DNA of 64,000 bases, from the NCBI RefSeq assembly GCF_000588875.1, contig NZ_JEMV01000001.1, positions 103,310 to 167,309 on the forward strand, read 5' to 3'. Source of the DNA: Sphingobium sp. Ant17. GTDB lineage: Bacteria > Pseudomonadota > Alphaproteobacteria > Sphingomonadales > Sphingomonadaceae. Of this stretch, positions 32,505 through 55,311 are shown one piece after another. The position numbers were made by a program, and so were the translations under genes. How positions within the stretch are numbered: position 1 is the first letter of the stretch; the number at the start of each line of letters is the position of its first letter. The notes under the pieces are model-generated. The model saw only the letters and a program-made list of their open reading frames with translations, searched no databases and was not told the DNA's origin.

Positions 32505-32538
32505 CTGGCCCCCGGCGCAAGTCGGTGTCCAGCCCCAC

Positions 32539-32582
32539 GGTCAGCATTGGACCCCGGCTTATGCCGGGGAACGATGCTGACC
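32539..32582. repeat. perfect inverted repeat, CCCCGGC hairpin family
   Basis: The outer arms GGTCAGCAT (32539-32547) and ATGCTGACC (32574-32582) enclose the inner arms CCCCGGC and GCCGGGG (32552-32558, 32563-32569). The inner part matches the repeat at 9-30. It lies between the dehydratase and aldehyde dehydrogenase genes, where the transcript would form a strong hairpin that could lower downstream expression (inference). Confidence 0.7.
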
Positions 32583-32610
32583 TTATCTGACTGAATTTCA
32601 GGAGAATCCC

Positions 32611-35108: not shown

Positions 35109-35125
35109 AAACGGGAGCGGGAATT

Positions 35126-35862: not shown

Positions 35863-35885
35863 ATCCTCCCCGTGCCGGGGAGGAT
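35863..35885. terminator. bidirectional hairpin terminator
   Basis: A perfect stem ATCCTCCCC / GGGGAGGAT with a five-base loop lies between the converging GntR and urtE genes. The T-tract is poor, so termination strength is uncertain. Confidence 0.6.
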
Positions 35886-39269: not shown

Positions 39270-39276
39270 AGGTCTA

Positions 39277-39382
39277 TAGATCCGTTCGTCCTGAGCGAAG
39301 TCGAAGGACTTGCCTGAGCGGAGCGAAGGCATCTCGTTTCGCTCGATAGAAGGCTTCGACAAGCTCAGCCCGAACGGTGTTC
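39277..39382. repeat. dispersed inverted repeat, second full copy
   Basis: The left arm starts CCGTTCGTCCTGAGCGAAGTC and the right arm ends AGCTCAGCCCGAACGG. The same family as 4198-4294. It lies between urtA and urtB, so the urt transcript carries a large hairpin after the binding-protein gene. Such a hairpin often leaves the first cistron's mRNA more abundant (general knowledge, not shown here). Confidence 0.7.
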
Positions 39383-39392
39383 CTGACCATCT

Positions 39393-40607
39393 TTACAGCT
39401 TGCAAGTCTTGCCGGGGAAGGCGAACGCATCATAGGGTTCCGGCGCGATGTCCTTACCGCTGTCGGCGATGATCTCGAACTGGCCATCGGCCTTCAGCTT
39501 GCCAATATAGGCCTTCTGCACCAGGCTCTGGTTCGCTGCGAAGCTGACCGTGCCCATGGGGGTCGCAAAGCCGCCCAGCGATGCCGCCGCCTTGCGCACA
39601 GCGTCCGGCTCGAAGCTCTTGGCCTTCTCGACCGCCGCCTTCCACGCATAGACGTCCAGATAGCCATGGACCATCGGATCGGTGATCGCCGCGTCCTTGC
39701 CGAACTTCGCCTTATAGGCAGCGATGAACTTGGCGTTCGCGTCGCTGGGCAGGCTCTGGAAGTAGTTCCAAGCGGCATAGCTGCCCTCGACCAGGCCCGC
39801 GCCCATCGCCTGGGCCTCCTGCTCGCCGATCGAGAAGGACATGACCGGCATCGTCTTGGGGCTGATCCCGGCGGCCTGCATCTGCTTGAAGAAAGCGACA
39901 TTGCTATCGCCATTCAGCGTGTTGATGATGATCGCCGGTTTGGCCTGCGCGATCTTGGCGATCACGCCTGAAAAATCGGTGCCGCCCAAGGGCACATAGG
40001 CTTCACCCAGCACCTGCATCCCGCCCTTTTCGATATGTTTCTTCAGGATCAGGTTGGCGGTGCGGGGATAGACATAGTCGGACCCGACCAGAAAGAAGCT
40101 CTTATAGCCCTGCGCCACCGCCCATTCGAGCGCGGGCAGCGCCTGCTGATTGGGCTGTGCGCCCGAATACATGATGTTGGGCGAACATTCATTCCCCTCG
40201 AACTGCACCGGATACCAGAGCAGGTTCTTGGTCCGCTCGAACACCGGCAGCATCGCCTTACGGCTGGCCGAGGTCCAGCCGCCGAACACGGTCGACACGC
40301 CATCGCTTTCGATCAGCTTCGACGCCTTCTGTGCGAAGGTGGACGGGTCCGACGCGCCATCCTCGACCAGGGCGTTGATCTGCTTGCCCAGTACGCCGCC
40401 GGTCGCGTTGATCTCCTCGATCGCCAGCATCTCGGCATTTTTCACCGTGATCTCGCTGATCGCCATCGTGCCGGTCAGCGACTGGAGCACGCCCACCGAC
40501 ACGCTGTCGCCCGCAGGCGCGCTCGCATTTTCGCTGCCGCCGGAACAGGAGGCCAGCGCCAGCGCGCAGGCGGAAGTGGCAAGCATAAGCAGCCTGGAAC
40601 GGATCAT
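39393..40607 (-). CDS. urtA: urea/amide ABC transporter substrate-binding protein UrtA
   Basis: 404 residues with a lipoprotein signal (LALASCSGG), so tethered in the periplasm. It is a Peripla_BP_5 type receptor: VGVLQSLTGTMAISEITVKNAEMLAIEEINATGGVLG, FGGWTSASRKAMLPVFE, NLLWYPVQFEGNECSPNIMYSGAQPNQQ and TLNGDSNVAFFKQM, all as in cyanobacterial UrtA. Urea or short-chain amides are the expected ligands. It heads urtABCDE; its promoter carries the shared motif described at 40667-40713. Confidence 0.93.
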   Translation of the reverse strand: MIRSRLLMLATSACALALASCSGGSENASAPAGDSVSVGVLQSLTGTMAISEITVKNAEMLAIEEINATGGVLGKQINALVEDGASDPSTFAQKASKLIESDGVSTVFGGWTSASRKAMLPVFERTKNLLWYPVQFEGNECSPNIMYSGAQPNQQALPALEWAVAQGYKSFFLVGSDYVYPRTANLILKKHIEKGGMQVLGEAYVPLGGTDFSGVIAKIAQAKPAIIINTLNGDSNVAFFKQMQAAGISPKTMPVMSFSIGEQEAQAMGAGLVEGSYAAWNYFQSLPSDANAKFIAAYKAKFGKDAAITDPMVHGYLDVYAWKAAVEKAKSFEPDAVRKAAASLGGFATPMGTVSFAANQSLVQKAYIGKLKADGQFEIIADSGKDIAPEPYDAFAFPGKTCKL

Positions 40608-40666: not shown

Positions 40667-40713
40667 AAGGCTATGGAATGCGGGCTATCCCCCGTATGCG
40701 TCATTTGACGTAG
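40667..40713 (-). promoter_or_regulatory. urtA promoter with shared operator and N25-spaced box
   Basis: On the minus strand CTACGTCAAATG (40713-40702) is followed after exactly 25 bases by CCATAGCCTT (40676-40667), 60 bases before the urtA ATG. The same two elements at the same spacing occur before qhpA and the TonB receptor gene. The upstream element is likely an activator site and the second a -10-like box (inference). Confidence 0.7.
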
Positions 40714-40741
40714 GCAGGGCGAAGCGCTTGCGCCTAGAGTT
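40696..40741 (+). promoter_or_regulatory. parvulin-hupE promoter sharing the same operator, opposite direction
   Basis: ATGCGTCATTTG (40696-40707) differs from the shared motif by one core base and overlaps the urtA site, making the imperfect palindrome TGCGTCATTTGACGTA. After 25 bases comes CCTAGAGTT (40733-40741), close to the CCTAGGCTT of qhpA. So a single dyad appears to serve both divergent transcripts. Confidence 0.6.
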
Positions 40742-40747
40742 GGGACC

Positions 40748-41611
40748 ATGGCGGGCAGGGCAGAGATTATGGGGATCGACAGCAACGGCGCGGGGGCGAC
40801 GCCCGGCCACGCATTGCGCGCTATGCGCAGCCGGATCGGCAAAGCCCTGGGCGATCCGCTATTTGCCTTTCTGGTCGCGGGCGTGGCTCTGTTCGGCGGC
40901 TATCAGATCATTGAACGCGCGCAAAAACCGCCGGTCGTCTTCACGCCCCAGGTCGAACAAGCGATGGTCGAGGACTATGAATTGCTCGTCGGCCGCCCTG
41001 CAACCGCCCCGGACAAGGCGCGGATCAAGCGCGACTATCTGGCCGAGGAACTGCTGTTCCGCGAAGCGATCGACCGCAATATGCATCTGACCGACGGGGA
41101 AACCCGCAAGCGGCTTGTCGACAAGGTCCGCTACCTGATCGCGGGCGCTCCGCCCGAACCGACCGACGAACAATTGGTCAACCATTATGCCGACAATCTG
41201 GCACAGTATCGCGCAGAACCGCGCACCAGTTTCACTCAGGTCTATCGGGCACAAAAGCCCGCCGACGCGGCATTGCTGCTGGCGCAGCTCAATGCTGGGG
41301 AGAGGATTCCCAGCGACGATTTCTGGCTGGGTCGCACCTTCCCCCGCTATGGCGATTCGATGGTGCGCGGCATTTTCGGCCAGCCCTTCGTCGCCACGCT
41401 CAAGACCGCCCCGGACGGACGCTGGTTCGGCCCGGTCCAGTCGCCACGCGGCTGGCATTTCGTGCGCAAGAGCGAGAGCATCCCCGCCGCCATGATCCCC
41501 TTCCCCGCGATCAAGGATCAGGTGCGGCAGGATTATATGATTGCCCATAGCGAAGCCGCCATCGACAAGGCGCTGTCGGGCCTCAAGGAGAAATATGATG
41601 TGGAAGAATAG
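40748..41611 (+). CDS. membrane-anchored parvulin-type peptidyl-prolyl isomerase
   Basis: 287 residues: a TM anchor near 35-52 (DPLFAFLVAGVALFGGYQII), a helical SurA/PpiC-like N-domain (LAEELLFREAIDRNMHLTDGETRKRLVDKVRYLI) and a PpiC-like domain (PRTSFTQVYRAQKPADAALLLAQL, WFGPVQSPRGWHFVRKSES). It probably folds or inserts envelope proteins. If the promoter box at 40733 is real, ATG 40769 (MGIDSNGAG) is the better start. It overlaps the hupE-like gene by 14 bases; this pair recurs in other proteobacteria, function unknown. Confidence 0.83.
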   Translation: MAGRAEIMGIDSNGAGATPGHALRAMRSRIGKALGDPLFAFLVAGVALFGGYQIIERAQKPPVVFTPQVEQAMVEDYELLVGRPATAPDKARIKRDYLAEELLFREAIDRNMHLTDGETRKRLVDKVRYLIAGAPPEPTDEQLVNHYADNLAQYRAEPRTSFTQVYRAQKPADAALLLAQLNAGERIPSDDFWLGRTFPRYGDSMVRGIFGQPFVATLKTAPDGRWFGPVQSPRGWHFVRKSESIPAAMIPFPAIKDQVRQDYMIAHSEAAIDKALSGLKEKYDVEE

Positions 41612-42593
41612 TCTGGCCGCCCTCCTGCTCGCGCTGGCGGCCTTGCTGCCGGGCACGGCGATGGCCGACATCTTCCTGTCCGCCGATTTCGCGCTGACGC
41701 GTGGCGAGGATGCGAACAGCTATGAATTCACCGCCGCCGTGCCCGAAACAGTGGGTCATCCCGCGCCGGTCCTCTGGCCGCAGGGCTGTCGCCAGACCGC
41801 GATGACGCGCCAGACGAGCGGCGGCCGCGCGCAATATGCCTATGAATTCGCCTGCGAGCGTCCTTTCAGCGCGGGCGACGTCATCCAGACGCCGTGGAAG
41901 GCCGATGGCGGCCGCTTCGTCACGAATGTCATGGGCAGCCAGGTCGATCGCAGCCTGACGGGCGGCACGAAAGGCATTGCCGTTCCGGTGGGCGAAACCG
42001 CGGTAGGCGAACGCGCCCTGACCCAGATCGCGCCTGAATTTCTGGCCCAGGGCGTCTGGCATATCTGGCTTGGCTGGGACCATCTGGCGTTCGTTCTCTG
42101 CCTTGCCCTGCTGGCGCGCGGGCGGGACCTGCTCTGGCTGGTCAGCGCCTTTACCGCTGGCCATTCCATTTCGCTGGCCGTCGCCTTTTGCGAATTGGTC
42201 CATGTCCCCGTTCCCCCGGTCGAAGCCGCCATCGCCCTGTCGATCGCCTTCATGGCGCGTGAGGCTTTGCTGGTCGGGAAAGGCGAACAGGCCTTCGCCT
42301 TCCGCCGTCAGTTGACCGTGGTGTCGCTGTTCGGCCTGCTCCACGGCTTGGGCTTTGCCACCGCGCTGGGTGAGCTGGGCGTGCAGGCGGGCGAGAAACT
42401 GCCAGCGCTCATCTTCTTCAACATCGGCGTCGAAGCAGGACAATTGCTGTTCGTCGGGGCTATCATGGCGACGCTGGCGGGCCTGCGCGCTATCTCGCTC
42501 GCCGCGCCGGTGCGGGTCGCGGCGCTCTATGCCGTCGGCGCGATCGGCTGCTTCTGGATGGTGGAGCGGGTGGCGGGGTTTGGCATCGCCTGA
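41598..42593 (+). CDS. HupE/UreJ_2-family membrane protein
   Basis: 331 residues: a signal peptide (cleavage near TAMADI), a periplasmic beta-rich domain of about 140 residues, then about six TM helices with the family motifs GVWHIWLGWDHLAFVLCLALLA, FTAGHSISLAVAF and LLHGLGFATALGELG. The histidines in WHxWxGxDH, GHS and HG resemble metal sites; HupE and UreJ relatives are linked to nickel uptake, though this subgroup is untested. AAGGAG precedes ATG 41598. Its 3' end overlaps qhpE by 67 bases in convergent orientation. Confidence 0.87.
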   Translation: MWKNSLAALLLALAALLPGTAMADIFLSADFALTRGEDANSYEFTAAVPETVGHPAPVLWPQGCRQTAMTRQTSGGRAQYAYEFACERPFSAGDVIQTPWKADGGRFVTNVMGSQVDRSLTGGTKGIAVPVGETAVGERALTQIAPEFLAQGVWHIWLGWDHLAFVLCLALLARGRDLLWLVSAFTAGHSISLAVAFCELVHVPVPPVEAAIALSIAFMAREALLVGKGEQAFAFRRQLTVVSLFGLLHGLGFATALGELGVQAGEKLPALIFFNIGVEAGQLLFVGAIMATLAGLRAISLAAPVRVAALYAVGAIGCFWMVERVAGFGIA

Positions 42594-43210
42594 TCGTCCA
42601 GACGGTCCCGCGCGACGATCCCGCTGACATTGGCTACCGCGAAACTTACGCCATAGAGGTTGCGCCGTTGCTCGACGCCGGGGATCGGACGGGGATGGCC
42701 GGACGCATGGGCGATCCCGTCCCGCACATCATAGGTGTCGCGCGAGCAGTTCCAGTCCAGGGCGACACCCAACACCCCGTCCAGACTGCCCGGATAGCAG
42801 GGCTGCCCATCGACATCATGCGCGGCCACGATCAGTACGCCTGCCTCCACGGCCCGTTCCACCGCCGCCGCAAAGGCCGGGGCGTGCGCCGGGTTGACGG
42901 TGCCAAGGCTGAGGTTGATCATATCGACCGGCACCTCGACCGCCAGGTCGATAGCGCGCACCAGCGCCCGCGCGCTAGTCCGCAGCCCATCGTGAAACAC
43001 CCGGATCGGCAGGCACAGCGCAGCGGGGGCCTGCTCCATGATCGCGGCCGTCACCGCCGTTCCATGCCCCAGCCGGTCGAGCGTATCGTTCTCCGTTACC
43101 GCCCCATCGCGCGCCACGGCGAAGCCGGGCAGCAGCCGCGCCGCGTCGATATGCGGATGGTCAGGATGGACGCCGCTGTCGATGACGGCGATGCGTACCG
43201 GGTCAGGCAT
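42527..43210 (-). CDS. qhpE: subtilisin-like maturation protease QhpE
   Basis: 227-residue S8 serine protease without a signal peptide. Catalytic Asp11 (AVIDSGVHPDHP), His49 (LGHGTAV) and Ser189 (GVSFAVANVSG) are present; the usual oxyanion Asn of AAGN is replaced by Asp132 (AAHD). In Paracoccus, QhpE cleaves the leader of the cross-linked gamma subunit. Position after qhpF (8-base overlap) supports that role. ATG 43210 begins MPDPVRIAVID. Confidence 0.88.
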   Translation of the reverse strand: MPDPVRIAVIDSGVHPDHPHIDAARLLPGFAVARDGAVTENDTLDRLGHGTAVTAAIMEQAPAALCLPIRVFHDGLRTSARALVRAIDLAVEVPVDMINLSLGTVNPAHAPAFAAAVERAVEAGVLIVAAHDVDGQPCYPGSLDGVLGVALDWNCSRDTYDVRDGIAHASGHPRPIPGVEQRRNLYGVSFAVANVSGIVARDRLDDQAMPNPATRSTIQKQPIAPTA

Positions 43211-44882
43211 CGACCATTTCGCTGCGCTGCTCGACCCGCGCATGCCCATCGGCCAGGGTGACGACCATATCCGCCATCCGCGCCATGGCAGGCTTGTGGG
43301 TGATGATGATGATCGTCGCATCGGGCAGCGCGCCGCGTAGTCGCCCAGCGATCAGTTGCTCGGTCTCGCCATCCAGCGCCGAGGTTGGCTCGTCCAATAT
43401 CAAGATGCTGGGCGAGCGCAACAACGCCCGCGCCAGCACGATCCGCTGCCGTTCACCGGCCGACAGCGCCATGCCCCGTTCCCCGGCGCGCGTCGCATAG
43501 CCGAGCGGCAGCTTGGCGATGAAGCCATCCAGCCCCGCCGCATGGGCCGCCGCTTCGATCTGTTCGCGCCTCACGTCTGGCAGGGCAAAGCCGATATTCG
43601 CCGCAATCGTATCGTTGAACAAATAGGGCGACTGATCGACCAATATGATCTCCCGCCGCACATCATCGAGCCGATAGGCGCGCAGGTCGCGGCCATTGAC
43701 CAGCACGTGCCCCGCATCGGGATCGAGATAGCGCACCATCAGGTCCGCCATGGTCGACTTGCCCACACCGCTGGGGCCGAGAATGGCGCACAAGCTGCCA
43801 GCGGGGATCGTCAGGTCGATGTCGCGCAACACCGCATCGCGATCATAGCGCATCGCCACCTGTTCGAACCGCATCGTGCCCGCCCGGTCCAGCGCGACCG
43901 CATCGTCTCGTTCGACCACCTCCGCCTTCGTATCGAACAGTTCGAAAATCCGCCCCAGCGACACGCGCGCCGATGCGAGGCCCGACGTCAGCCCCATCAG
44001 CGTCTGGATCGGCGAGAGCAGCCGCATATGATAGGTCATGAAGGCGACCAGCGTGCCGATGCTCATCCCATCCTCGATGATGCGCCAGCCGCCATAGAGG
44101 ATCACCGCCGATGTCGCCGCCGTCATCAACGTGCCCGGCAGTGCGCCGGTCATGAAGGAGGCGACCTGCATTTTGAGCATAGCACCGACGAAGGCATCAT
44201 TGCGTCCCTTGAACCGGTCCACTTCATGCTCGCCCGCGCGCAGGGACGCGACGACACGCATCCCCATCACCGTATCGACCAGCAGGCTACCAAGGTCCGC
44301 GCCCTTTTCGCGCATGTCGCGGGTCAGCGCGGTCAGGCGGCGCTGATAATAAGCGAAGGTCGCAAGGCTGGCCGGCACCAGCACGACGCTGACCAGAAAG
44401 AGTTTCCAGTCGAGCCACAGCATCATCGCGACGCAACCGACAAAGAACAGCAAATTGCTGACCACCGAGAGCAAGGTGTCGGACGCGATCCGCTGCACGT
44501 CACTCACGTCGCTGTTCATTCGCGACACCAGATCACCCAGCCGGAAGCTGCCATAAAAGCGCGGCGACAGCGTCTGGAGATGGCGCAGCAGCGCCGCACG
44601 AATGTCGTAGAGCATCGCCGCCGACAGCGCGACATAGCGATAGCTGGCCAGGATATTGACCGCGAACCCGGCGATGGTGACCGCGATCATGATCGCCGCG
44701 ATCTTCACCAGCGCACCCATGTCCCGGCGCAGCAACGCCTCGTCGATCATGAGTTTCGAGAGGTAGGGCTGGGCGAGGCCCAGCATGGTCGACACAAGGC
44801 TGATCGCCAGCACAACGACCAGCGCCGCGCGATAGGGTTTCAGGAAGGGGGTCAGCCGCTTGTAAGCGCCCCAGTCCGCCAC
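43203..44882 (-). CDS. qhpF: ABC exporter QhpF (fused TM and ATPase)
   Basis: About 559 residues: a six-helix exporter domain and an ATPase with Walker A ILGPSGVGKSTMADLMV, signature LSAGERQRIVLARALL and Walker B ILILDEPTSALDGE. In the qhp system it moves the processed gamma subunit to the periplasm. No in-frame ATG fits near the expected start. The GTG at 44882 (VADWGAYKRLTPFLKPY), 19 bases after the qhpG stop, is my choice. The open frame further upstream overlaps qhpG and is not exporter-like. Confidence 0.87.
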   Translation of the reverse strand: MADWGAYKRLTPFLKPYRAALVVVLAISLVSTMLGLAQPYLSKLMIDEALLRRDMGALVKIAAIMIAVTIAGFAVNILASYRYVALSAAMLYDIRAALLRHLQTLSPRFYGSFRLGDLVSRMNSDVSDVQRIASDTLLSVVSNLLFFVGCVAMMLWLDWKLFLVSVVLVPASLATFAYYQRRLTALTRDMREKGADLGSLLVDTVMGMRVVASLRAGEHEVDRFKGRNDAFVGAMLKMQVASFMTGALPGTLMTAATSAVILYGGWRIIEDGMSIGTLVAFMTYHMRLLSPIQTLMGLTSGLASARVSLGRIFELFDTKAEVVERDDAVALDRAGTMRFEQVAMRYDRDAVLRDIDLTIPAGSLCAILGPSGVGKSTMADLMVRYLDPDAGHVLVNGRDLRAYRLDDVRREIILVDQSPYLFNDTIAANIGFALPDVRREQIEAAAHAAGLDGFIAKLPLGYATRAGERGMALSAGERQRIVLARALLRSPSILILDEPTSALDGETEQLIAGRLRGALPDATIIIITHKPAMARMADMVVTLADGHARVEQRSEMVDA

Positions 44883-44901
44883 CGGCGCACGCGTCCCGTC
44901 G

Positions 44902-45911
44902 CTATGCCGCCTGCCGCCGGGGCACCAACCGAGCCCCTTCCAGTATGAAGCCCGGCTCCGGCATCTTCGCGAGAAGCCCGGTACACCAGCGATGTCCCTC
45001 CAGCAGAGCCTCCTGCTGCGACCGCCACCAGTCGCCCGTGCCGCCGGTCGTGTAGAATTGGGCGCACAGCAACAGGTGCCGTCGCATCGCCGCAATCAGC
45101 ATAGATTGATAATGGGTCAGAAGCGCGGTGGCGTCTTGACCCTCGGCGATGCCGGTCACCACCGCTGCGGCAAGGATAGCCTCGCGCACCGACTGCGCCG
45201 TTCCATCCCCGCAGATCGGGTCGAAGCCCAGCGCCGCCGTGCCGCAGGCGAGCCAGTCCTCCCCGCACAAGGCATATGCAGGCGCGGCGCGGCAAGGAAC
45301 GGGGTCGATGCGGCCCCCACCGCATCGACCACCGGCGCGATCAGGCGACTTTGCGCCAGCAGATCGTCCAGTGATCCGCCAACCCCCAGCAACCAGCCTT
45401 GCCCTGCTCCGGCCGGCACCAGGAACAGCCAACCGCTCGCGACCGCTTCGACCCGGCCTTCCTCGTTGCAGGCCGGATCGCGCAGCGCGACCTTGGCCGC
45501 GACAGCCCTGCGGTCCCCGAAGACATGCATCTCCCCACACGGCATTGGCGGGGCGGCGTGGATGGTGAAATCCACCGCCCCGTCGCGCGGCGCTGGCTTG
45601 CCCCCTGCCAGCACAGCCTGCACCTCGTCCTCCGACGCCAGTGCCGCGCCATGCGGCACCATGACCGGTGCGCCGCCCCCCCAGGCGACCACACGGCGTT
45701 TGATACGGGGACTGTCGGCGAACAGATCGGGCCGGTCGAACACGCTTCGGACCAGCGCCAGTGCTGCATCACTGAGCAATATAGAAGGTACGGGTGGACG
45801 ATGAGCGGCTTCGCTTGCGACCCGAAGGCCCGCCTCATTCAATATATGCGCACATGTCGTAGCGGCAATCCCGCTTCCTTTTATGCCGACGATCATGCGC
45901 TTATCCGTCAT
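44902..45911 (-). pseudogene. qhpG: FAD-dependent monooxygenase QhpG, frameshifted
   Basis: The N-terminal frame carries the FAD motif MIVGIKGSGIAATTCAHIL; the C-terminal frame has LCGEDWLACGTAALGFDPICGDGTA, the second FAD signature of tryptophan-halogenase-like flavoproteins. They join near 45275. Total length plus one base is divisible by three (about 336 residues). In Paracoccus QhpG hydroxylates the gamma-subunit Trp that becomes the CTQ cofactor, so a truly dead copy would leave an inactive dehydrogenase. Loss of one C from a CCC run is a plausible error. Overlaps qhpB by four bases. Confidence 0.85.
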
Positions 45912-47008
45912 TCCACCGCGACCATGCCCGCACCGGTGGTGTCATAGCCCAGGTCCAGTGTCGTCTCATGCTTGAGCGTCTTGGCGTCGTAAATCTCTAG
46001 ATCATAGCTCGCGCCGTAGATGTAAAGCTTCGCCCCATCGGTGGACATGCCCAAGCGGAAGCGCGAACGGCAGGGGAATTCCGCCTTGTCGACCACGGCA
46101 TTGGTGGCCATGTCCATGTGCCAGAATTCGCAGCGCTTATTGCCCAGTTTCCCGTCAGTGACGACCGTATAGGCATGTTTGCCATCGGGGGTGACCTGCA
46201 ATCCCGCCATCGCTTCGGGTGCGGGGCCGATGGGGGTAAAATCAAACTGTCGGGTGGACAGGTCGAACCGCGCCATGCCGAACATCTTGTTATGGACATA
46301 GGGATCGGCGGCATTGAACAGCGAGACATATTGGCCTGGCGTGCGGATCGCGTCGAGCGTACCGCCAAAGCCGACATTCTCCATACCGGTGCCCTCCGGC
46401 TTGGCGAGGTCGATCCGGTCGGTGACTTTCAATGTCGCCACGTCAATGATCGCAACCTTCTCACCGAAGGCATAAAGATATTTACCGTCGGGCGACACTT
46501 TATAGCCCGAACGCCAGCCGCCGGATCGCTCATCCTCCTTCTCGATTTCGGCAGTGCGGACGACCTTTTGCAGTTTCAGGTCGATCACGCCATACATAGG
46601 CTTGCTGACGGTATAGCGGTCGATGCCTTTCTCGAACTTCGAGATGACGGTGTAGAAGAAGCGCCCGGTCGGATCGGGCACCCCGCCCCAGAAGCGATAA
46701 CGGGTGGTGCCGTCGTTCAGGCTGAACTTGTTGATCACCTTGCGCGTCGCGGTATCGATCACTTCGATGCCGCTGGTGGTGATGGTCGTCACATAGATGC
46801 GCTTGCCATCGTCGGACAATTGCATCGATGTGGGCAGGCCCGTGTCCAGCTTGATGGTGCTCGTGACAGCACCCTTGCCCTCTTCGAAGACCAGCAGACG
46901 GTCGGGATAGGAGCCCATGAACAACGTCGCGGCGGACGCGGGGATGGCGCTCAACAGGGCCAGGCCAGCGCCCAGCATCAGACGATATTTCTGCATCGCG
47001 CGCCTCAT
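45908..47008 (-). CDS. qhpB: quinohemoprotein amine dehydrogenase beta subunit
   Basis: 366 residues with a signal peptide (MLGAGLALLSAIPASAATL) and a seven-bladed YVTN-type beta propeller: repeated units such as MQLSDDGKRIYVTT, GYKVSPDGKYLYAFGEK and LQVTPDGKHAYTVVTDG. In QHNDH this periplasmic subunit packs against alpha and gamma. ATG 47008 overlaps the qhpC stop (ATGA); ATG 46996 is a possible alternative. Gene order and fold agree. Confidence 0.93.
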   Translation of the reverse strand: MRRAMQKYRLMLGAGLALLSAIPASAATLFMGSYPDRLLVFEEGKGAVTSTIKLDTGLPTSMQLSDDGKRIYVTTITTSGIEVIDTATRKVINKFSLNDGTTRYRFWGGVPDPTGRFFYTVISKFEKGIDRYTVSKPMYGVIDLKLQKVVRTAEIEKEDERSGGWRSGYKVSPDGKYLYAFGEKVAIIDVATLKVTDRIDLAKPEGTGMENVGFGGTLDAIRTPGQYVSLFNAADPYVHNKMFGMARFDLSTRQFDFTPIGPAPEAMAGLQVTPDGKHAYTVVTDGKLGNKRCEFWHMDMATNAVVDKAEFPCRSRFRLGMSTDGAKLYIYGASYDLEIYDAKTLKHETTLDLGYDTTGAGMVAVE

Positions 47009-47364
47009 GGAAAAACGAGATCGAGACTGCGCCAGTCCTTCGTGGCGGTGGCGCAGTTGCTGGCCCAATCGGGCGAATAATTGACATGGTCGGGCACCTG
47101 CACTGGCCAGAAGCAGGTGACATAGCAGTCGTAAATGTCGCGCTCGACCGGCTGGCACAGCCCCGCCGTACCGCCGCCCGCATCGACCTCCCAGCCGGGT
47201 GAGAAGGACAGCGAACAGCCCATCGGCACATGCGGGCGCGGTGCCTGTTGGAGGGCGACGACATCTTCCTCCATATCGGCGTCGGGTGATACCGCCGCCT
47301 CCATCTGCGTCACGGCCTCATCGATCCGCTGCGCCTTTTTATTGATGGCACGAAGATGCTTCAT
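47005..47364 (-). CDS. qhpC: quinohemoprotein amine dehydrogenase gamma subunit (CTQ-bearing)
   Basis: 119 residues, no Sec signal. The catalytic subunit is cross-linked after translation. By spacing to the Paracoccus protein, the thioether pairs are Cys50-Glu59, Cys70-Asp76 and Cys84-Asp92, and the cysteine tryptophylquinone forms from Cys80 and Trp86 (CYVTCFW). All six cross-link residues and both CTQ residues are present. If Cys50 equals mature Cys7, the leader is about 43 residues, longer than the 28 I recall for Paracoccus. One extra Cys (104) is present. Overlaps qhpD and qhpB by four bases. Confidence 0.95.
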   Translation of the reverse strand: MKHLRAINKKAQRIDEAVTQMEAAVSPDADMEEDVVALQQAPRPHVPMGCSLSFSPGWEVDAGGGTAGLCQPVERDIYDCYVTCFWPVQVPDHVNYSPDWASNCATATKDWRSLDLVFP

Positions 47365-48815
47365 GACAGCCCCTTTCTTTCGGCAAAGCGTTCGAGGAAG
47401 CCCGGATTACGCACCGACAGCACACCGTAAATGCGCAGGCACGTGTCGGTCCACTGGCGTATCCAGTCGCAATAATGGAGGTTGGCATGGCCCGTGTCGC
47501 CATAGCGCACGAACGCCTCATGGTGGCACCCGCCAGCGCAGAGCGGCCGCGCCCAGCAGCTTTGGCAATCATATTTCGCCTCGACATGTCCCTTGGCCAG
47601 GAACGCGCCCTGCTTGGCCCGATCGATGCCGCTGGAGACATGGCCCATGCTGTGCGTGTCGGCATCGGTGAAGCGGTGGCAGGGGGACAGGTCGCCCGAT
47701 GGGCTGACCCCCATAAGGCCCAAGCCTGCGCCGCAGGGATGGGATTTGTTGACGCCTGAAATCAGTTCGCTGATCGTTTCGCTGACATTGGTGAAGCCGT
47801 GGGACTCACCGCGCAGGGCATATTCGAGCCACTCTTCGGCCAGCAGGTTGAACTGCGCCAGCACGCTGTCCATGCCATTGCCGTCGAGCGAATAGGCGCG
47901 TTCCTCCCCCGTCGTCACCGGCGCGAAACCGACTTCGTGGAAGCCCAGATCATCCTTCAGATGGCGGAAGATGCGGACCACATCGGTCACACCCTCGGTC
48001 AGCGTGACCCGCGCGGTGATGGCGCGGGTCTTGTGATGGGCGATCAGTGTGCGCAGCCGCGGTTCGATCACCGCATAGCTGCCCTTGCCATTTTTATAGA
48101 CGCGATGCTTGTCCTGCAATTCCGGCGGGCCGTCCATGCTGACGGTCACGCCGACCCGGTTGTCCGACAGAAAGGTGACGATGTCCGGCGTCAGCAGTGT
48201 CGCATTGGTGGTCAGGCTGTAGGTGATGCCCTTGCCTGCTGCTGCCGTTGCTGCATTGGCATAGTCCACCACATCGCGCAGCAGCTTGAAGTTCATCAGC
48301 GTTTCGCCGCCGAAGAAGGTGATATGCACCGCCTTGCGCCCGACCGCCTCGGCGATCAGCAGGTCGACCGACGCCTTGGCGGTGTCCAGCGTCATATATT
48401 TGGGCTTGCCCGCCGGTGTCGCGATCTTGTCCGCGCCGAACTCATAGCAATAGGTGCAGGCGAGGTTGCACTGGTTGGTGACGTTGAGGACCAGCGCCTG
48501 CAGCGGGAAGTCGGCGGGCGGCGCTTGGGGCACTTCCGCCACCGGCATGCCATGGCCAAGATGAATGAGCCGCGCCTGCCGCAATTCGCGCACCAGCCCG
48601 TCGGCGTCCTCCTGCGCCCGCCCTTCGCTCACCAGTTCGCGCACCAACATGGCGTGGGTCAGTTCCTGCCCATCCAGCCGGTCGAGCACCGCGCGGACAT
48701 CCGCGTCGATCTCGAAGATCGCGCCGGCGCTGACCACATACACGAAGTCGCTGCCGCCCGCATCAAAGCCATGATATTCCGCCCGGCGATAGGTGGGTGC
48801 CTGCATCACGGTCAT
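47361..48815 (-). CDS. qhpD: radical SAM/SPASM peptide-modifying enzyme QhpD
   Basis: 484 residues. It has an N-terminal peptide-recognition-like region, then the radical SAM motif CNLACTYC (Cys116, 120, 123) and FFGGETLMNF. A SPASM domain with auxiliary cluster cysteines follows (HPCGAGLGLMGVSPSGDLSPCHRF, YDCQSCWARPLCAGGCHHEAF). It forms the Cys-to-Asp/Glu thioether bonds in the gamma subunit before export. ATG 48815 overlaps the qhpA stop by four bases. Confidence 0.95.
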   Translation of the reverse strand: MTVMQAPTYRRAEYHGFDAGGSDFVYVVSAGAIFEIDADVRAVLDRLDGQELTHAMLVRELVSEGRAQEDADGLVRELRQARLIHLGHGMPVAEVPQAPPADFPLQALVLNVTNQCNLACTYCYEFGADKIATPAGKPKYMTLDTAKASVDLLIAEAVGRKAVHITFFGGETLMNFKLLRDVVDYANAATAAAGKGITYSLTTNATLLTPDIVTFLSDNRVGVTVSMDGPPELQDKHRVYKNGKGSYAVIEPRLRTLIAHHKTRAITARVTLTEGVTDVVRIFRHLKDDLGFHEVGFAPVTTGEERAYSLDGNGMDSVLAQFNLLAEEWLEYALRGESHGFTNVSETISELISGVNKSHPCGAGLGLMGVSPSGDLSPCHRFTDADTHSMGHVSSGIDRAKQGAFLAKGHVEAKYDCQSCWARPLCAGGCHHEAFVRYGDTGHANLHYCDWIRQWTDTCLRIYGVLSVRNPGFLERFAERKGLS

Positions 48816-50542
48816 TGCGACACCTCCGGCTGATCCCATTTCTGATAGGCGGGCACGGTGACCACCATATAGGCGCGCGCGCTGAGCGGCTTGCCGAACC
48901 TGTCCTTCTCATTCTTGGCCGTCGCCACGACCCAGACATCGCCATAATTGTTGCGGCCAAAGCGGCGGGCCGGGTTCGGCCCTTCGACATTGGGGGTGAA
49001 CAGCGCCGCAGGGCTGAGCGCGCCGACATATTTGGCGTCGTCGTCATAATAGACGGCCAGGAACTCCTGCATCGACCAGGTGACATCGACCGGCCCGACC
49101 GCGATATCGTCCGGCGTCCCCTGCTTCCCATCCATGCCGTTTTCGAAGCCAATCGCCTCGAACTGGGCATAGCCCTTGGGAAATTTGATCCCGCCCAGGC
49201 GCGATACGGCGGTTTCGGGTGTCACCTTTATATAATCGATCTTGTTATAGACCGGATAGGCCTTTTCCAGCACCGCGCCGCCGATCGCAACATCGCGCTG
49301 CCCCGATGGTGCGCTTGCCGCGACATCGGCGGTCACGACCAGTTCCTGCGGACTGGCAGACACGATCTTCGTCGCGGTTACGCCAGCGCCCAGGTCAATG
49401 TCGGAAGCGGACAGCGAAGCGGACATGTTATGGCCTATTATGCGGAACTGCGCGCCCTTGGTTCCAGCCTTGACCGGCCCCGGCACGACGGCCAGTACGG
49501 CGGGCGCAGCGGTGGCGCGGATCAGTTTCACGTCGAGGCCGAATTCCTGATAATCGCCCCAGTACCAGCGACCTTGTGCGTTTTGCTGATCGGGAGCGAA
49601 CCACATTGTTTCGCGCGCGGCGGTGGCGAGGTCGTCGGGCTTGCCAGCCGCTGCCGCCCCCTTGGACGAGCCGCGCCAGCTATAGCCGGCATAGACGATA
49701 CCGGTGCCGCTGCGGCTGACGGTGCCGCCATTGTTCAGCGACTTGAGCGTGCTGCTGGTTACGAACTCGTCGGCGCTCTTGCCGGGCTTGACACTGAACG
49801 CCCCCACGAAGCGCCCCTGCCCCGGCGCGGAGGCCACGACCAGCCATTCGCCCGCCAGGCGCGGCACGCTCTGGCGCGATCGCCAGGCCGCCCATTCGGG
49901 CGTGTGCAGCGGCGCGGCCTTGGCCATGTAGCCCAGCGCATATTCGCCGCGCAGCATCTTGTCCTTGGGGTCGCGGCCCGCAGGCTGCTCGCTATCCTCG
50001 GCCGGTCGGCGATATTGCGCATCGGCCTGCGAATACATGGCGACGTGCAGATCCTGCAGCGACTTCCATTCCGTCTTGGACCGACGCCAGGACAGGGGCT
50101 GGGCGAAGCTGTGGCAGACGGCACAGGCACCGCGCATCGTTTCATTGGGGATGTTGGTTTCGTCGATTGTACGCTTTTCAGCGAGATACATGACCGGCAA
50201 CGCCTCTTGCGGTGCCAGGCCGTGCGAGGCGGACAGCGACTTGACCACGGCGCGCGATTCTTCGGGTGTGATCGGCAGGCCGTTCAGCCGCACCATCCGC
50301 TTGATCACCTGCGCCCAGCCTTCGGGCGTTGTCCGTACCCAGCTGATCCGCGACAAATTGCCCTTCGCATCAGGCGCATGACATGTGCCGCATTTTTCCT
50401 GGACCAGCGGGTCAGTGACCGGAATGCCGGGATCGCTTTCCTTCATCGCCACGCCGTCCGGCCCGCCATCCGCCTGCGCGAACACCACCGACGCGGAAAA
50501 GAGGGCCAGCAATCCGAATTTCGAGACAGTTGTCCGCTTCAC
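48812..50542 (-). CDS. qhpA: quinohemoprotein amine dehydrogenase alpha subunit (dihaem c)
   Basis: 576 residues with a Sec signal (cleavage near VVFAQAD). Two c-type haem motifs, CGTCH (Cys51, Cys54, His55) and CAVCH (Cys140, Cys143, His144), lie in an N-terminal cytochrome region; beta-rich domains follow. It passes electrons from the CTQ of gamma to an external acceptor during oxidative deamination of primary amines in the periplasm. First gene of the qhpADCBGFE operon; its promoter at 50583-50629 has the shared motif. Confidence 0.95.
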   Translation of the reverse strand: MKRTTVSKFGLLALFSASVVFAQADGGPDGVAMKESDPGIPVTDPLVQEKCGTCHAPDAKGNLSRISWVRTTPEGWAQVIKRMVRLNGLPITPEESRAVVKSLSASHGLAPQEALPVMYLAEKRTIDETNIPNETMRGACAVCHSFAQPLSWRRSKTEWKSLQDLHVAMYSQADAQYRRPAEDSEQPAGRDPKDKMLRGEYALGYMAKAAPLHTPEWAAWRSRQSVPRLAGEWLVVASAPGQGRFVGAFSVKPGKSADEFVTSSTLKSLNNGGTVSRSGTGIVYAGYSWRGSSKGAAAAGKPDDLATAARETMWFAPDQQNAQGRWYWGDYQEFGLDVKLIRATAAPAVLAVVPGPVKAGTKGAQFRIIGHNMSASLSASDIDLGAGVTATKIVSASPQELVVTADVAASAPSGQRDVAIGGAVLEKAYPVYNKIDYIKVTPETAVSRLGGIKFPKGYAQFEAIGFENGMDGKQGTPDDIAVGPVDVTWSMQEFLAVYYDDDAKYVGALSPAALFTPNVEGPNPARRFGRNNYGDVWVVATAKNEKDRFGKPLSARAYMVVTVPAYQKWDQPEVSQ

Positions 50543-50582
50543 CCTATGTCCCCCTTTACGCGAACCCTGCCCGCGTGAACCC

Positions 50583-50629
50583 GAAGCCTAGGCAGGTGCC
50601 CCCGCAGCACCATTGCCCAAATGACGTAT
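50583..50629 (-). promoter_or_regulatory. qhpA promoter with shared operator and N25-spaced box
   Basis: On the minus strand ATACGTCATTTG (50629-50618) is followed after exactly 25 bases by CCTAGGCTTC (50592-50583), about 40 bases before the qhpA ATG. Same two-part layout as the urtA and TonB-receptor promoters. The promoter means qhpA need not depend on read-through from the ureohydrolases upstream. Confidence 0.7.
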
Positions 50630-50677
50630 GGCCCAATGACAATCCGCCATGCCAAACTGGACGACCGTCAAGATTTT

Positions 50678-52149
50678 TCAGCTTTTCTTTTTCGGACCGT
50701 AATATTCGTCCTGGCCATGTTCGACCGACACCGGGTTGAAATAGCCAGGCGGCAGGCCCTTCTTGCGCATCGCAATGCCCGCCAGACAGGCGTTCAGCAG
50801 ATAATTGCTGTTGAGCGCGGTCTTGTAGCTGGTGTCGAGATAGGGCGCGACTTCGACGATATCGATGCCGGCAATGTCGTTTTCGGCGCATAGCCGCCGC
50901 ATGATCGGCTGCGCCTCCCGCATGGTGAGGCCACCGGGAACCGGCGTCCCGGTGCCAGGCATGAAGGCCGGGTCCAGCACGTCGACATCGAACGATATCC
51001 ACAGCTTCTTGGTGTTGGTCCGCGCTTCCTTGAGCGCGCGTTCCATCACCTTTTCCCAGCCCCACTTCTCGACTTCGACCATCGTGTGGTATTTCATGCC
51101 CTTGTTGCGCATCCACCCGAATGTTTCGAGGTCCGGCCCGCGCGCACGCAGCCCTACCTGGACATAATCCTGCGGGCGGACATGGCCTTCATGCAGGACG
51201 CGATAGACGGGCGATCCGTGCGTGATCCAATGGACGCCGTTGCGGCCCACATCATAATGGCTGTCGAAATGGACGACGCGACATTACCCTTGCCATGCAC
51301 GTCGGCGGCGGCGGCGACATTGGGATATTCCAGGCTGTGGTCGCCGCCGATGACGATCGGGATCGCGCCCGTCTGTGCGATTTCGCGCACCATCTCGCGG
51401 ACATGGGCGACCGATCGTTCGGTACTATTCTGGTCGATCGCGATATCGCCATAATCGACGATCTCCAGCACCGAACTGGGGTTGATCATCGAATACATAT
51501 CGTTGCCGCCCGCGCCACCGGTCATGCGCAGCGCGCGCGGACCGTCGATCGCGTTGCGCCAGCCCGACCCCATGTCGAGCGGTGCGCCGACGATCGCGAC
51601 ATCGACCTTGCCCGCGCGCAGATCTTCGGGCGTCATCGCCACCGGCGCACCCGCAAAGGTCGCAAAGCCGCCACGCCGCCCGCCAATATAGCGGCCCAGG
51701 TCCATCGGCCCGGCATCGCGCTTGGGGTCCATCACCAGTGGACGCTTGGCCTTCCACGCATTGAACCAGGCCGATCGCGTATCGAGCGGAATGGTCTTGG
51801 CGTCGCGCCCTTCCTTATATTCGACCTGCTCGTGCAGGGCCGCGATCGCATCGATATAGGTGACCAGCTCAGCTGCGGGCAGCGTGCGGATGCGATCGAA
51901 CAGCACATCCTTTTCGACATAGCGGCCGGTTTGCCCCTGTTTGATCAGCGCGACCTTTTCAGGCGCGATACCGCTCAGCTTGGCCGCGACATCATCGGGG
52001 AGCGTCACTGGCTTGGGCTTGCCCATGATGTCTTCTTGCGGAATGGGCGGTGGCGGGTTGGGCGTTTCGAACGCATCCCCCGCCAATACGGAGGTCGCCG
52101 CAGCGGCCGCCGCCATGCTCCATCCGGTTATGGCGTTGATCGACGGCAT
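50678..52149 (-). pseudogene. arginase-family ureohydrolase 1 (long form), frameshifted
   Basis: About 490 residues when repaired. It is nearly identical in large parts to the third copy (53512-54990), including N-terminus MPSINAITGWSMA, GGDHSLEYP, SFDVDVLDPAFMPGTGTP and EVAPYLDTSYKTALNSN. The manganese-site residues are all present. The frame breaks at 51280/51281, where copy 3 has GACGCCGAC and this copy has GACGCGAC; one base restores GNVGVVHFDSHYDVGRNG. ATG 52149 has a GGGAGAAG RBS. Substrate is a guanidino compound, identity unknown. Confidence 0.87.
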
Positions 52150-52162
52150 CGCTTCTTCTCCC

Positions 52163-53512
52163 TCAACGCTTGGCGGTCTTGACCGACATGCCCGTCTTGC
52201 GCATCGCGATGCCCGACAGGCAGGCATGCAAGATATAATTGGCGCTCATCCGGCTGACATAGGTCGGGTCCAGGATCGGCGCGGCGTCGAGCAGGTCGAA
52301 GCCCACCACCTTGGTCTGCGCGCAGAGTTGCCGCACCATCGGGATGGCCTCCCGCATGGAGATACCGCCCGGCACCGGTCGCCCGGACGCGGGCGCATCG
52401 CCCGGATCAAGCACGCTCATGTCGAACGAGACGAAGATATTCTCCGGCCCTTTCTTGAGGCCCGAGAGGATGTCATTGGTCACCGCCTGCCAGCCGCGCT
52501 CCGTCACCGCAGCGGTCGACAGGATGCGCACGCCACTGTCGGTCAGCCGCTTCTGCGTGGCGACATCGGCCCCGCGCCCGCGCAGGCCCACCAGCGTCAC
52601 GTCGCTGCCGCGCAGCAGATTCTGCTCCATCAACCGGGTCAGCGTCTGGGTATCGGAAATCATATGCGCATCATTCAGGTCGGCATCGGCATGGGCATCG
52701 AACTGCACCAGCGCGACCTTGCCCGCGCCATAGGTATCGACCATCGCCGCGACATCGGGGAACATGATCGTATGATCGCCGCCGACGATGAAGGGGATCG
52801 TGCCCACGCTCGCCATTTCGGCGATCATCGCGCGGATATGATCGAGCCCCCGGTCAGGTGCCATATAGTCGGGGGCCAGATCGCCATAGTCCGCGATCGA
52901 CAGGACGAGGCCCGGATCGATCCCGCCATCGGCATCCGCCCCGACCAGCCCATCCATGCCACGCAGCGCCATCGGCGCATGTTTGGCATCGCGCCAGCCC
53001 GACGAGAAATCAAGCGGCACGCCAACGAAGGCGACCTCGACCTTGCCCGCGACCAAATCCTCCTTACGGATAGCGACGGGCGCGTCGGCGAAGGTTGGGA
53101 TCGCCCCCTTCTGGAATTGATAGCGTTTCAGGCTGAATGGCCCATCGTCGCGCTTCAATTTGTCGAACATCTTGGGGCGGACGGTGGTGCCTGCATTCCA
53201 TCCGCGCGCCTGCGGATTAAGCGCGATCTCCGAGGGGTCGCGCCCGGCTTTGAACTTGCTGTCCTCGACCACTGCCATCAGCGCGGTGGCATAGGCATCG
53301 ACATCGGCGGCGCTGCGTCCAGCGAGCGCGACCTGGAGTTTCTCCGCCGTCAGGCCAAAGCGCGTCAACATCACGGGGTCGGACAGAAACGCCTTCTTTT
53401 CCGGCGACAGAGTGGCGAGCGGATCGCTGGCCTGTGCATGGGCCGGGCCGCACAGGGTTGCGATCGCCAGGGCAGCGGCGGCGCACCGCGCCAGCAGGGG
53501 GGTGCGTGCCAT
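52163..53512 (-). CDS. exported arginase-family protein 2 with altered metal site
   Basis: 449 residues with a clear Sec signal (MARTPLLARCAAAALAIATL, cleavage near AHAQA), so predicted periplasmic, which is rare for ureohydrolases. The fold is kept: GGDHT (His247), FDAHAD (Asp272, His274, Asp276). The usual SFDVD motif is SFDMS (Asp364, Ser366), and the downstream Glu of VEVAP is Asp409. Two active-site positions thus differ. It may be a non-catalytic partner or have a changed reaction. One-base overlap with copy 3 and 13 bases from copy 1: one operon. Confidence 0.87.
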   Translation of the reverse strand: MARTPLLARCAAAALAIATLCGPAHAQASDPLATLSPEKKAFLSDPVMLTRFGLTAEKLQVALAGRSAADVDAYATALMAVVEDSKFKAGRDPSEIALNPQARGWNAGTTVRPKMFDKLKRDDGPFSLKRYQFQKGAIPTFADAPVAIRKEDLVAGKVEVAFVGVPLDFSSGWRDAKHAPMALRGMDGLVGADADGGIDPGLVLSIADYGDLAPDYMAPDRGLDHIRAMIAEMASVGTIPFIVGGDHTIMFPDVAAMVDTYGAGKVALVQFDAHADADLNDAHMISDTQTLTRLMEQNLLRGSDVTLVGLRGRGADVATQKRLTDSGVRILSTAAVTERGWQAVTNDILSGLKKGPENIFVSFDMSVLDPGDAPASGRPVPGGISMREAIPMVRQLCAQTKVVGFDLLDAAPILDPTYVSRMSANYILHACLSGIAMRKTGMSVKTAKR

Positions 53513-54990
53513 CAGTTCTTCTTCCCATAATAGCTGTCGAGGCCGTGATCGACCGAGACGGGGTTGAGATAGCCGGGCTTCAAGCCCTTCTTGCGCATGG
53601 CGATCCCCGCCAGGCAGGCGTTCAGCAGGAAATTGCTGTTGAGCGCGGTCTTGTAGCTGGTGTCGAGATAGGGCGCGACTTCGACGATATCGATGCCGGC
53701 AATGTCATTTTCCGCGCACAGGTTGCGCATGATCGGCTGCGCCTCCCGCATCGTGAGGCCGCCGGGGACTGGTGTGCCGGTGCCGGGCATGAAGGCCGGG
53801 TCCAGCACGTCGACGTCGAAGCTGATCCACAATTTCTTGGTGCTGCCCCGCGCTTCCTTCAGCGCGCGCGCCATCACCTTGTCCCAGCCCCATTTTTCGA
53901 CCTCGACCATCGTGTGATAGCGCATCCCCTTGTTGCGCATCCATCCGAACGTCTCCAGGTCCGGCCCGCGCGCGCGCAGCCCCACCTGGATATAGTCGCT
54001 GGCGCGGACATGGCCTTCGTTGATGACGCGATAGACTGGCTGGCCATGGTCGAGCAGATGGACGCGGCCGCGACCGATGTCATAATGGCTGTCGAAATGG
54101 ATGACGCCGACATTGCCCTTGCCATGCACATCGGCGGCGGCGGCGACATTGGGATATTCCAGGCTATGGTCGCCGCCGATCACGATCGGGATCGCCCCGG
54201 TGCGCGCAATTTCGGCGACCATCGCCCGCACATGATCGACGCTGCGCTCGGTGCTGTTCTGGTCGATGGCGATATCGCCATAATCCACGATCTTGAGCGC
54301 GGCGTTGGGGTTGATCATCGAATACATGTCGTTGCCGCCCGCGCCGCCGGTCATGCGCATGGCGCGCGGCCCGTCGATCGCGTTGCGCCAGCCTGATCCC
54401 ATGTCGAGCGGTGCGCCGACTATCGCGACATCGACCTTGCCCGCCTTCAAATCTTCCGGCGTCATCGCTACCGGCGCACCTGCAAAAGTCGCAAAGCCGC
54501 CGCCCCAACCGCCGACATAGCGCGTCAGTTCGATCGGCCCGACGTCCCGTTTGGGGTCCATGCTGTTCGGCCGCCTGGCCTTCCAGGCGTTGAACCAGGG
54601 TGAGCGGGTGTCGAGCGGGATCGCCGCGACATCGCGCCCGGCCTTGAACTCGACCTGGGCATGCAGCGCCTGCATCGCGTCGATATAGGCGCTGATCTCT
54701 TCGGGCTTGCCGGTGCGGATGCGGGCGAAGAGCGCGTCCTTTTCGACATAGCGCCCGGTAACGCCGCTTTTGAGGAAATCGACCTTCGCCTTGTCGATGC
54801 CTGCGAGCTTGGCTTCGACATCCTTGGGCAGTTCGAGCGGCTTGGGCCGTCCCATATCATCCTCGGCCGGCATTTGCGGCGCAGGGGTTCCTGCATTGGG
54901 CAGCTGCGACGGCAAATCGCCCGCGACCGCAGCCCCGATGGCCGCGATCCCGGCCATGCTCCATCCCGTGACGGCGCTCAAAGACGGCAT
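53512..54990 (-). CDS. arginase-family ureohydrolase 3 (long form)
   Basis: 492 residues, much longer than agmatinases (about 300). Hydrolyses a guanidino compound to urea and an amine. Metal ligands: His275 (IGGDHSLEYP), Asp300/His302/Asp304 (HFDSHYD), Asp392/Asp394 (SFDVDVLDP), with Glu437 near. Residues 50-160 form an N-terminal extension shared by all three copies (YVEKDALFARI, EFKAGRD, WFNAWKARRP). The extreme N-terminus has a hydrophobic helix (GWSMAGIAAIGAAVAGD) without basic residues, so export is doubtful. A GGAG RBS precedes ATG 54990. Longer forms recall nickel-dependent guanidine hydrolases, but that is inference. Confidence 0.88.
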   Translation of the reverse strand: MPSLSAVTGWSMAGIAAIGAAVAGDLPSQLPNAGTPAPQMPAEDDMGRPKPLELPKDVEAKLAGIDKAKVDFLKSGVTGRYVEKDALFARIRTGKPEEISAYIDAMQALHAQVEFKAGRDVAAIPLDTRSPWFNAWKARRPNSMDPKRDVGPIELTRYVGGWGGGFATFAGAPVAMTPEDLKAGKVDVAIVGAPLDMGSGWRNAIDGPRAMRMTGGAGGNDMYSMINPNAALKIVDYGDIAIDQNSTERSVDHVRAMVAEIARTGAIPIVIGGDHSLEYPNVAAAADVHGKGNVGVIHFDSHYDIGRGRVHLLDHGQPVYRVINEGHVRASDYIQVGLRARGPDLETFGWMRNKGMRYHTMVEVEKWGWDKVMARALKEARGSTKKLWISFDVDVLDPAFMPGTGTPVPGGLTMREAQPIMRNLCAENDIAGIDIVEVAPYLDTSYKTALNSNFLLNACLAGIAMRKKGLKPGYLNPVSVDHGLDSYYGKKN

Positions 54991-55104
54991 GTCATTCTCC
55001 GGCCCGGTCCACCGCGATCATGCGATGCGGGCATAGGCAACAGATATGGAACAGGTTTTCCCGCCCCTCTCCCAACGGGTAGGCGGGGACGCCCCCCAAC
55101 CCCA

Positions 55105-55170
55105 ATGGGGCATTTGACGTAGAATAGGCCCATGGTGACCTGGACGAACAGGCTACGTCAAATGCCCCAT
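55105..55170. promoter_or_regulatory. perfect 18-base inverted repeat between ureohydrolase and TonB-receptor genes
   Basis: ATGGGGCATTTGACGTAG (55105-55122) and its exact reverse complement (55153-55170) flank a 30-base spacer. Each arm contains the TACGTCAAATG motif, one pointing to each divergent operon. Leftward, a CCTACCCGTT box lies 27 rather than 25 bases away, a weaker match. The rest of 54991-55311 contains no gene that I can see. Confidence 0.7.
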
Positions 55171-55199
55171 GTCTGACTGCCTGCGCACTCCATAGCCTT
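55153..55199 (+). promoter_or_regulatory. TonB-receptor promoter with shared operator and N25-spaced box
   Basis: CTACGTCAAATG (55153-55164), 25 bases, then CCATAGCCTT (55190-55199). Both elements are identical, base for base, to those of the urtA promoter. The gene starts about 110 bases further, leaving a long leader. Confidence 0.7.
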
Positions 55200-55311
55200 T
55201 GCCCCAGATCAGAAGAACAGGAGGCGGCAGCCCATGCCGTCCAAAGCAGGTCGTTGCCGCTGCACAAGCACGGAACGACGGATCCGGGAGGGGTCAAGGG
55301 CAGGGAAGACA

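Follow-up and report, generated by a model that had tools for sequence, protein, structure and literature searches.

Two described systems pair a transporter-fused hybrid kinase with a LuxR-type regulator. CrbS/CrbR is presented in PMC5715377 as an SLC5-STAC hybrid kinase with a LuxR-type regulator for acetate use, and CrbR requires an imperfect inverted repeat at -52 to -36. RpuS/RpuR of Sinorhizobium fredii, as presented in PMC9100948, has an SLC5/STAC kinase and a direct-repeat operator and concerns pyruvate. In Sphingobium sp. Ant17, a stretch of 64,000 nucleotides (the window) contains four copies of a 16-bp 7-2-7 inverted repeat, T(A/G)CGTCA-WW-TGnnnCA. These face five promoters, those of urtA and parvulin-hupE (which have one palindrome in common), qhpA, a TonB-dependent receptor gene, and a ureohydrolase operon. 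Judging from sequence comparison, the repeat is very likely the binding site of a response regulator under the control of a transporter-built sensor kinase. The full explanation, in which a two-component activator has the element as its operator and ties guanidino-compound, amine, and urea genes together, is considered probable.

The candidate system resembles CrbS/CrbR, as far as described in the source above, in its transporter-fused hybrid kinase, its LuxR-type regulator, an inverted repeat just upstream of the promoter, and a nutrient-utilisation regulon. It differs in the NCS1 fold of the transporter part, in the letters of the operator, and in its urea, guanidino, and amine genes. With RpuS/RpuR it has in common an alphaproteobacterial transporter-fused hybrid kinase and a LuxR-type regulator over a nutrient gene set, but an NCS1 fold and an inverted repeat are found in place of SLC5/STAC and a direct repeat, and pyruvate is not concerned. 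The present system appears to work like these two, yet does not appear to be an SLC5/STAC member. MetT, described in PMC13390362 as an NCS1 importer of metformin, is likewise an NCS1 protein handling a guanidine-type compound; unlike the kinase considered here, it is described as a plain transporter without a kinase. The open-licence papers searched listed no NCS1-fused kinase with urease, urt, or qhp under its control.

The qhp operon of Paracoccus denitrificans is controlled by an AraC-type regulator. It encodes the same amine dehydrogenase and is described as inducible by n-butylamine (PMC7876137). Unlike that operon, the one in the window carries the box of the putative urea/guanidino regulon, and no AraC-type gene turned up among the 30 open reading frames of the window that were scanned with NCBIfam.

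The inverted repeat and its promoters

A preliminary description of the window had reported a 12-base element at four promoters. The element is real and conserved and all four carry the site, but the 12-base box is only part of the 16-bp repeat, and a fifth promoter, that of the ureohydrolase operon (55121-55106, minus strand), was overlooked. Exact copies of the 11-mer TACGTCAWWTG are at 40712 (-), 50628 (-), 55121 (-), and 55154 (+). TGCGTCATTTG at 40697 (+), with one mismatch, is the opposite strand of the 40712 site. This near-perfect palindrome, TGCGTCA-TT-TGACGTA (40697..40712), has half-sites that agree at 6/7 positions and is the predicted common operator of urtA (-) and parvulin-hupE (+). 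The predicted operator of the qhp operon, TACGTCA-TT-TGGGCAA (50613..50628, -), has a degenerate right half (3/7). Those predicted for the ureohydrolase operon, TACGTCA-AA-TGCCCCA (55106..55121, -), and for the TonB-dependent receptor (55154..55169, +) are identical 16-mers pointing away from each other, with halves that agree at 4/7.

A first-order Markov model predicts 0.03 exact 11-mers per 64 kb, and four were found. When one mismatch is allowed, the window contains six matches against 1.33 expected, a number reached by 0 of 100 shuffles; one of the six (5189+) is unrelated. The exact pair with N25-CCWWRG is expected 4.8e-5 times per window and is present three times exactly and once with one mismatch. 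The earlier judgement that these spacings are unlikely by chance is upheld by these counts. Genome-wide (5.24 Mb), the exact 11-mer occurs six times, with 2.6 expected and three copies in a reversed-motif control, and four of the six are in the window. The fifth copy precedes a second parvulin-hupE pair on contig C72. The sixth (contig C119) sits within an open reading frame and was dropped for that reason as a chance occurrence. Further sites precede a ureohydrolase-urease cluster on contig C77.

The second box had been placed exactly 25 bases downstream of the first. It does sit at a near-fixed distance and is the -10 box (TANNNT), but the strict 25-base rule was rejected because TANNNT starts 38-41 bases from the site start. 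Among 86 non-redundant sites, 39 have TANNNT beginning 38, 39, 40, or 41 bases away (14, 15, 8, and 2 cases), and eight neighbouring 4-bp windows hold only 0-2 such starts; near-palindromic sites count on each strand in this list, and in one of the two orientations there may be no promoter.

In the window, the -10 of urtA, TAGCCT (40668..40673, -, within CCATAGCCTT), is 39 bases from the site start and predicts transcription from ~40661. TAGAGT of parvulin-hupE (40735..40740, +) and TAGGCT of qhpA (50585..50590, -) are each at 38 bases, with predicted starts at ~40747 and ~50578, and TAGCCT of the TonB receptor gene (55193..55198, +) is at 39 bases, with a predicted start at ~55205. The parvulin-hupE start would touch the ATG at 40748, so translation of the parvulin may begin downstream of it. 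The ureohydrolase promoter of the window has no TANNNT at the usual distance; a related locus, L016, has TAGCCT there. At the C72 copy, CATAAC is placed two bases further from the site. Inspection of the upstream sequences of the five window promoters gave no good -35 after the site. With a start ~7 bases past the -10, the site would span about -51 to -36, as expected for an activator that sits next to RNA polymerase.

A candidate kinase-regulator pair and its distribution

The controller had been predicted to be encoded outside the block, and the evidence favours this: none of the 21 GerE-domain genes of the genome is on the window's contig. The best candidate is a pair on contig C77, a regulator (locus L128, 7760-6837, -) and a kinase (11115-7771, -), downstream of the ureohydrolase-urease cluster that bears the same sites. 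The regulator matches Response_reg (96.4 bits) and GerE (58.9 bits), both above cut-off, and is of the NarL/FixJ (LuxR) type. The other GerE gene on C77 (L128 3864-4316) has no receiver match. HisKA, HATPase_c, and an attached receiver are all matched in the kinase, which identifies it as a hybrid histidine kinase, and its N-terminal half has the predicted fold of an NCS1 transporter (CodB/Mhp1-like). The SLC5 (SSS) transporter domain of SLC5/STAC kinases was not matched by this kinase. Neither STAC nor any other Pfam family matched between the transporter part and the kinase part, where a cysteine-rich stretch sits. Eight cysteines of this stretch (~residues 498-535) are invariant across 50 homologues and could possibly form a metal or redox module.

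A search for QhpA in genome contigs gave 60 named loci, of which 30 entered the regulator comparison. The QhpA of the window shares 97% identity with its counterpart in Sphingobium sp. D43FB. In 12 loci (L007-L009, L011-L016, L022, L025, and L047), qhpA has ureohydrolase, TonB-receptor, and urt genes as neighbours. The site precedes qhpA in all 12 (with one mismatch in L012 and L025), and other promoters in these loci carry sites too. In loci such as L010 (87% QhpA identity), L018, L020, L021, and L055, qhp is found without those neighbours; the upstream sequence still aligns and the site is lost. When L010, L017-L021, and L055 were each scanned with their own qhpA upstream sequence at up to 5/19 mismatches, no substitute box repeated at other promoters was conspicuous. 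A different palindrome, ACGTTTCCGAAACG, is present where the site was lost in Sphingobium xenophagum (L010 9917, +), and a second copy of it was not found within that locus.

The regulator accompanies the site. In the 30 QhpA-locus genomes, a regulator of at least 77% identity is present in 12/12 site-positive genomes, and one of at least 75% in 0/18 site-negative genomes. A promoter profile, R1, was built from 44 promoters with the window's own included, so that its E-values for the window promoters are circular; counts over other genera are not. Among 61 genomes, eight have R1 matches at E<=1e-4 and all eight carry a full-length regulator orthologue. Three of the other 53 also have the orthologue (G019, G027, and G033). 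An exact site precedes ureD in G019, and in G027 and G033 (61%) the kinase match covers only the C-terminal part, with the contig of G033 ending there.

Across 298 genomes of the family (96 genera), R1 (E<=1e-3) was found in five and the regulator (E<=1e-60) in 31, and the five are all inside the 31 (p 9e-6). In the four of these other than Ant17, the regulator (50-67% identity) is ~4-28 kb from the R1 matches, which precede urease, urt, ureohydrolase, TonB, or parvulin genes. Among 385 genomes of the class, R1 (E<=3e-4) was matched in Ant17 and two others, G659 and G435. G659 belongs to another family, and its site is before urtA, 4.7 kb from a regulator of 53% identity. In S. terrigena (L047, G008), the genes from urtA through the regulator are on one contig, within ~34 kb. 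Five more R1 matches in the Ant17 genome are weak (C1:51506 with E 0.039, and C2, C18, C60, and C17 with E 0.7-2.2), and the stretch around C1:51506 (L129) had no match to any query gene.

The site also follows the form of the kinase. Over 51 regulator loci, it is present in 22/23 with a kinase match reaching the NCS1 part and in 5/28 of the rest; the single miss among the 23 is an 8.3-kb stretch. By urease linkage, the site is found in 20/21 linked and 7/30 unlinked loci. Of the simulated loci, 1/280 has it. The 51 loci are not independent, as L183 and L204 are the same contig and many come from one genus. A missing NCS1 part or site in L181, L183/L204, L237, and L238 says little because these are short stretches or contig ends, and L182, L206, L208, L211, and L212, stretches without the regulator, were left out. 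The most diverged urease-linked loci (L210, L235, and L236; regulator 45-50%) have urease and urt, with no ureohydrolase match beside their sites. This comparative evidence favours a single activator near the -10, as had been proposed, with the proviso that the distance varies by about 4 bp and that five promoters are concerned.

Weighing of the explanations

A number of observations weigh against the motif or against its control by the C77 pair. The Ant17 assembly places the R1 sites on C1 and C72, apart from the regulator on C77. Regulator relatives of some identity are present in 8/18 site-negative QhpA-locus genomes. In two of these, L032 and L065, a site-like 11-mer (0 and 1 mismatch) lies on the opposite strand ~250-400 bases upstream of qhpA; it was not counted as a qhpA site. 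No R1 match at E<=1e-3 was obtained in 26/31 regulator-bearing family genomes; the kinase match lacks the NCS1 part in most of these. Sites were also found without a regulator, in G435 (beside urtA, with no regulator match in the 18 kb fetched), in G032 (an exact qhpA site, with ureohydrolase genes only partial in the 15 kb fetched), and in G006 (E 0.003). Before ureD, the sites lack a -10 at the usual distance. The pair of boxes at up to three mismatches is ordinary (4 found, 2.8 expected, as many in 33/100 shuffles), and the strength of the motif therefore rests on the exact copies. Recognition-helix letters separate the loci only partly: VNKHLEQ has the site in 22/32 and others in 5/19, with eight loci that gave no helix-pattern match counted among the others. 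A recount of the same rows over the 43 loci with a readable helix gave 23/33 for V(N/D)KHLEQ and 0/10 for other letters, and the letters appear to be a modest predictor of the site. Finally, shared ancestry and a regulator that travels with its pathway mean that co-occurrence cannot fully separate the two.

Another, unlinked DNA-binding protein, such as a one-component TetR-, GntR-, or MarR-type factor, could own the site while the kinase-regulator pair only travels along. Many families bind 16-bp inverted repeats, the sites of G032, G006, and G435 come without the regulator, and the regulator genes seen among the window open reading frames scanned are only those of GntR/FCD and MarR type. This explanation is improbable: the site follows the regulator down to 45-50% identity, follows the NCS1-including kinase matches, and has a position that agrees with LuxR-type activators such as CrbR. 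The site may otherwise be a repression operator of the same regulator or of another factor, since repressors can have symmetric operators close to promoters. That is very unlikely, because the sites are upstream of the -10 and end where a -35 would begin, with no good -35 after them, and because the distance to the -10 is held within 4 bp, as for an activator. Although the TonB receptor gene and the ureohydrolase operon have the same 16-mer as their site, the boxes can hardly be chance or duplicated copies of one promoter without a common regulator, which conservation largely contradicts: spacers vary among promoters and species while the site and -10 are kept, 0.03 exact copies are expected per window, and where a genome lacks the linked genes, its aligned qhpA promoter has no site.

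Predicted regulon and gene content

With two-component activation as the preferred explanation, a dimer of the NarL/FixJ (LuxR)-type regulator would bind the 7-2-7 repeat where a -35 box would begin. After phosphotransfer from the kinase, it would recruit RNA polymerase to the TANNNT box. The NCS1-fold half of the kinase would most likely sense urea, or a guanidino compound yielding urea. The active kinase would turn on TonB-receptor uptake, ureohydrolases (releasing urea and an amine), quinohemoprotein amine dehydrogenase, the urea ATP-binding cassette (ABC) transporter, HupE/UreJ-like proteins, and urease. Guanidino compounds would thereby be taken up and hydrolysed, the amine oxidised by the quinohemoprotein dehydrogenase, and the urea taken up by Urt and passed to urease. 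That urea is the inducer is a guess. Because the most diverged urease-linked members have urease and urt with no ureohydrolase match beside their sites, it is rated the most probable signal, and the ureohydrolase, TonB, and qhp genes are taken to have been recruited later. The predicted purpose of the gene block is extracytoplasmic use of guanidino compounds and amines, tied to urea uptake and urease.

Homologues number at least 8000 for the kinase and at least 7993 for the regulator among 8000 scored candidates each. For this large uncharacterised set, an operator, a promoter geometry, and a regulon can now be predicted in concrete form. A wider proposal, about equally likely to hold or to fail, is that NCS1-fold kinases with LuxR-type regulators are nutrient "transceptors" of a large class not yet described, and that the urease-linked branch among them senses urea or a guanidino compound. 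In sphingomonads, one promoter box would have brought secreted ureohydrolases, a TonB receptor, and the qhp operon under this branch, giving a regulon that could mine extracytoplasmic guanidino compounds for nitrogen and reducing power.

Recognition-helix variants occur among regulator paralogues. Those with an altered helix (QKHLE) are found in L200, L202, L214, L219, L220, and L222, with kinase matches without the NCS1 part and no strong site nearby (top score 18.6, in L222).

The window genome (G000) is a 5.24-Mb draft in 199 contigs with 6% contamination. The urea ABC transporter genes, urtEDCBA (35885..40607, -), exceed their NCBIfam cut-offs except for urtD (302.1 against 304.1). Pfam matches identified a parvulin-type isomerase (Rotamase_2) and a HupE/UreJ_2 protein (40748..42593, +). 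The qhp operon (42527..50542, -), assigned through NCBIfam, encodes the QhpE protease, an ABC exporter, a protein without assignment (45156-45911, no NCBIfam match), a beta-like subunit that scores under its cut-off, the radical SAM protein QhpD, and the alpha subunit QhpA. Three arginase-family (ureohydrolase) genes follow (50680..54990, -), and then the TonB-dependent receptor (55234..57567, +), with NCBIfam matches under cut-off. The nearest solved proteins to the first ureohydrolase are guanidinobutyrase and "agmatinase 2", with metformin hydrolase subunits lower in the ranking. Signal-like N-terminal stretches were read by eye in two ureohydrolases (P0002 and the one on C77). Compared with intact relatives, the third ureohydrolase gene (~50680-52227, -) is split over two frames and ureC on C77 (L128 13108-15118, -) over three. 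These breaks may be assembly errors, given the contig number and contamination.

Some labels were read from sequence without a family search, namely ureA, ureB, the MauD-like protein, the molybdenum-hydroxylase pair, NiCoT, lon/HU beside the C72 site, and the C119 reading frame. In L128 (18449, +) and L174 (13174-16632), a site faces genes for a MauD-like protein and a [2Fe-2S]/molybdenum-hydroxylase pair, adjoining the fourth ureohydrolase, and in relatives these genes are beside the C77-type ureohydrolase. In G002 (L138 7274, -) and G028 (L136 7381, -), the gene behind a site has a NiCoT-like nickel transporter next downstream, which suggests nickel uptake in the regulon; the G002 gene directly behind the site looks like a TonB receptor. 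A search of the Ant17 genome for the G002 NiCoT-like gene, made without a positive control, gave no match. A similar palindrome, TACGTCATTCGACGCA, is present in the qhp locus of Acetobacter malorum (L042 2908, +). A separate cluster in the window (30702-35860) encodes a dihydroxy-acid dehydratase, aldehyde dehydrogenase-like and Gfo/Idh-type proteins, and the GntR/FCD regulator.

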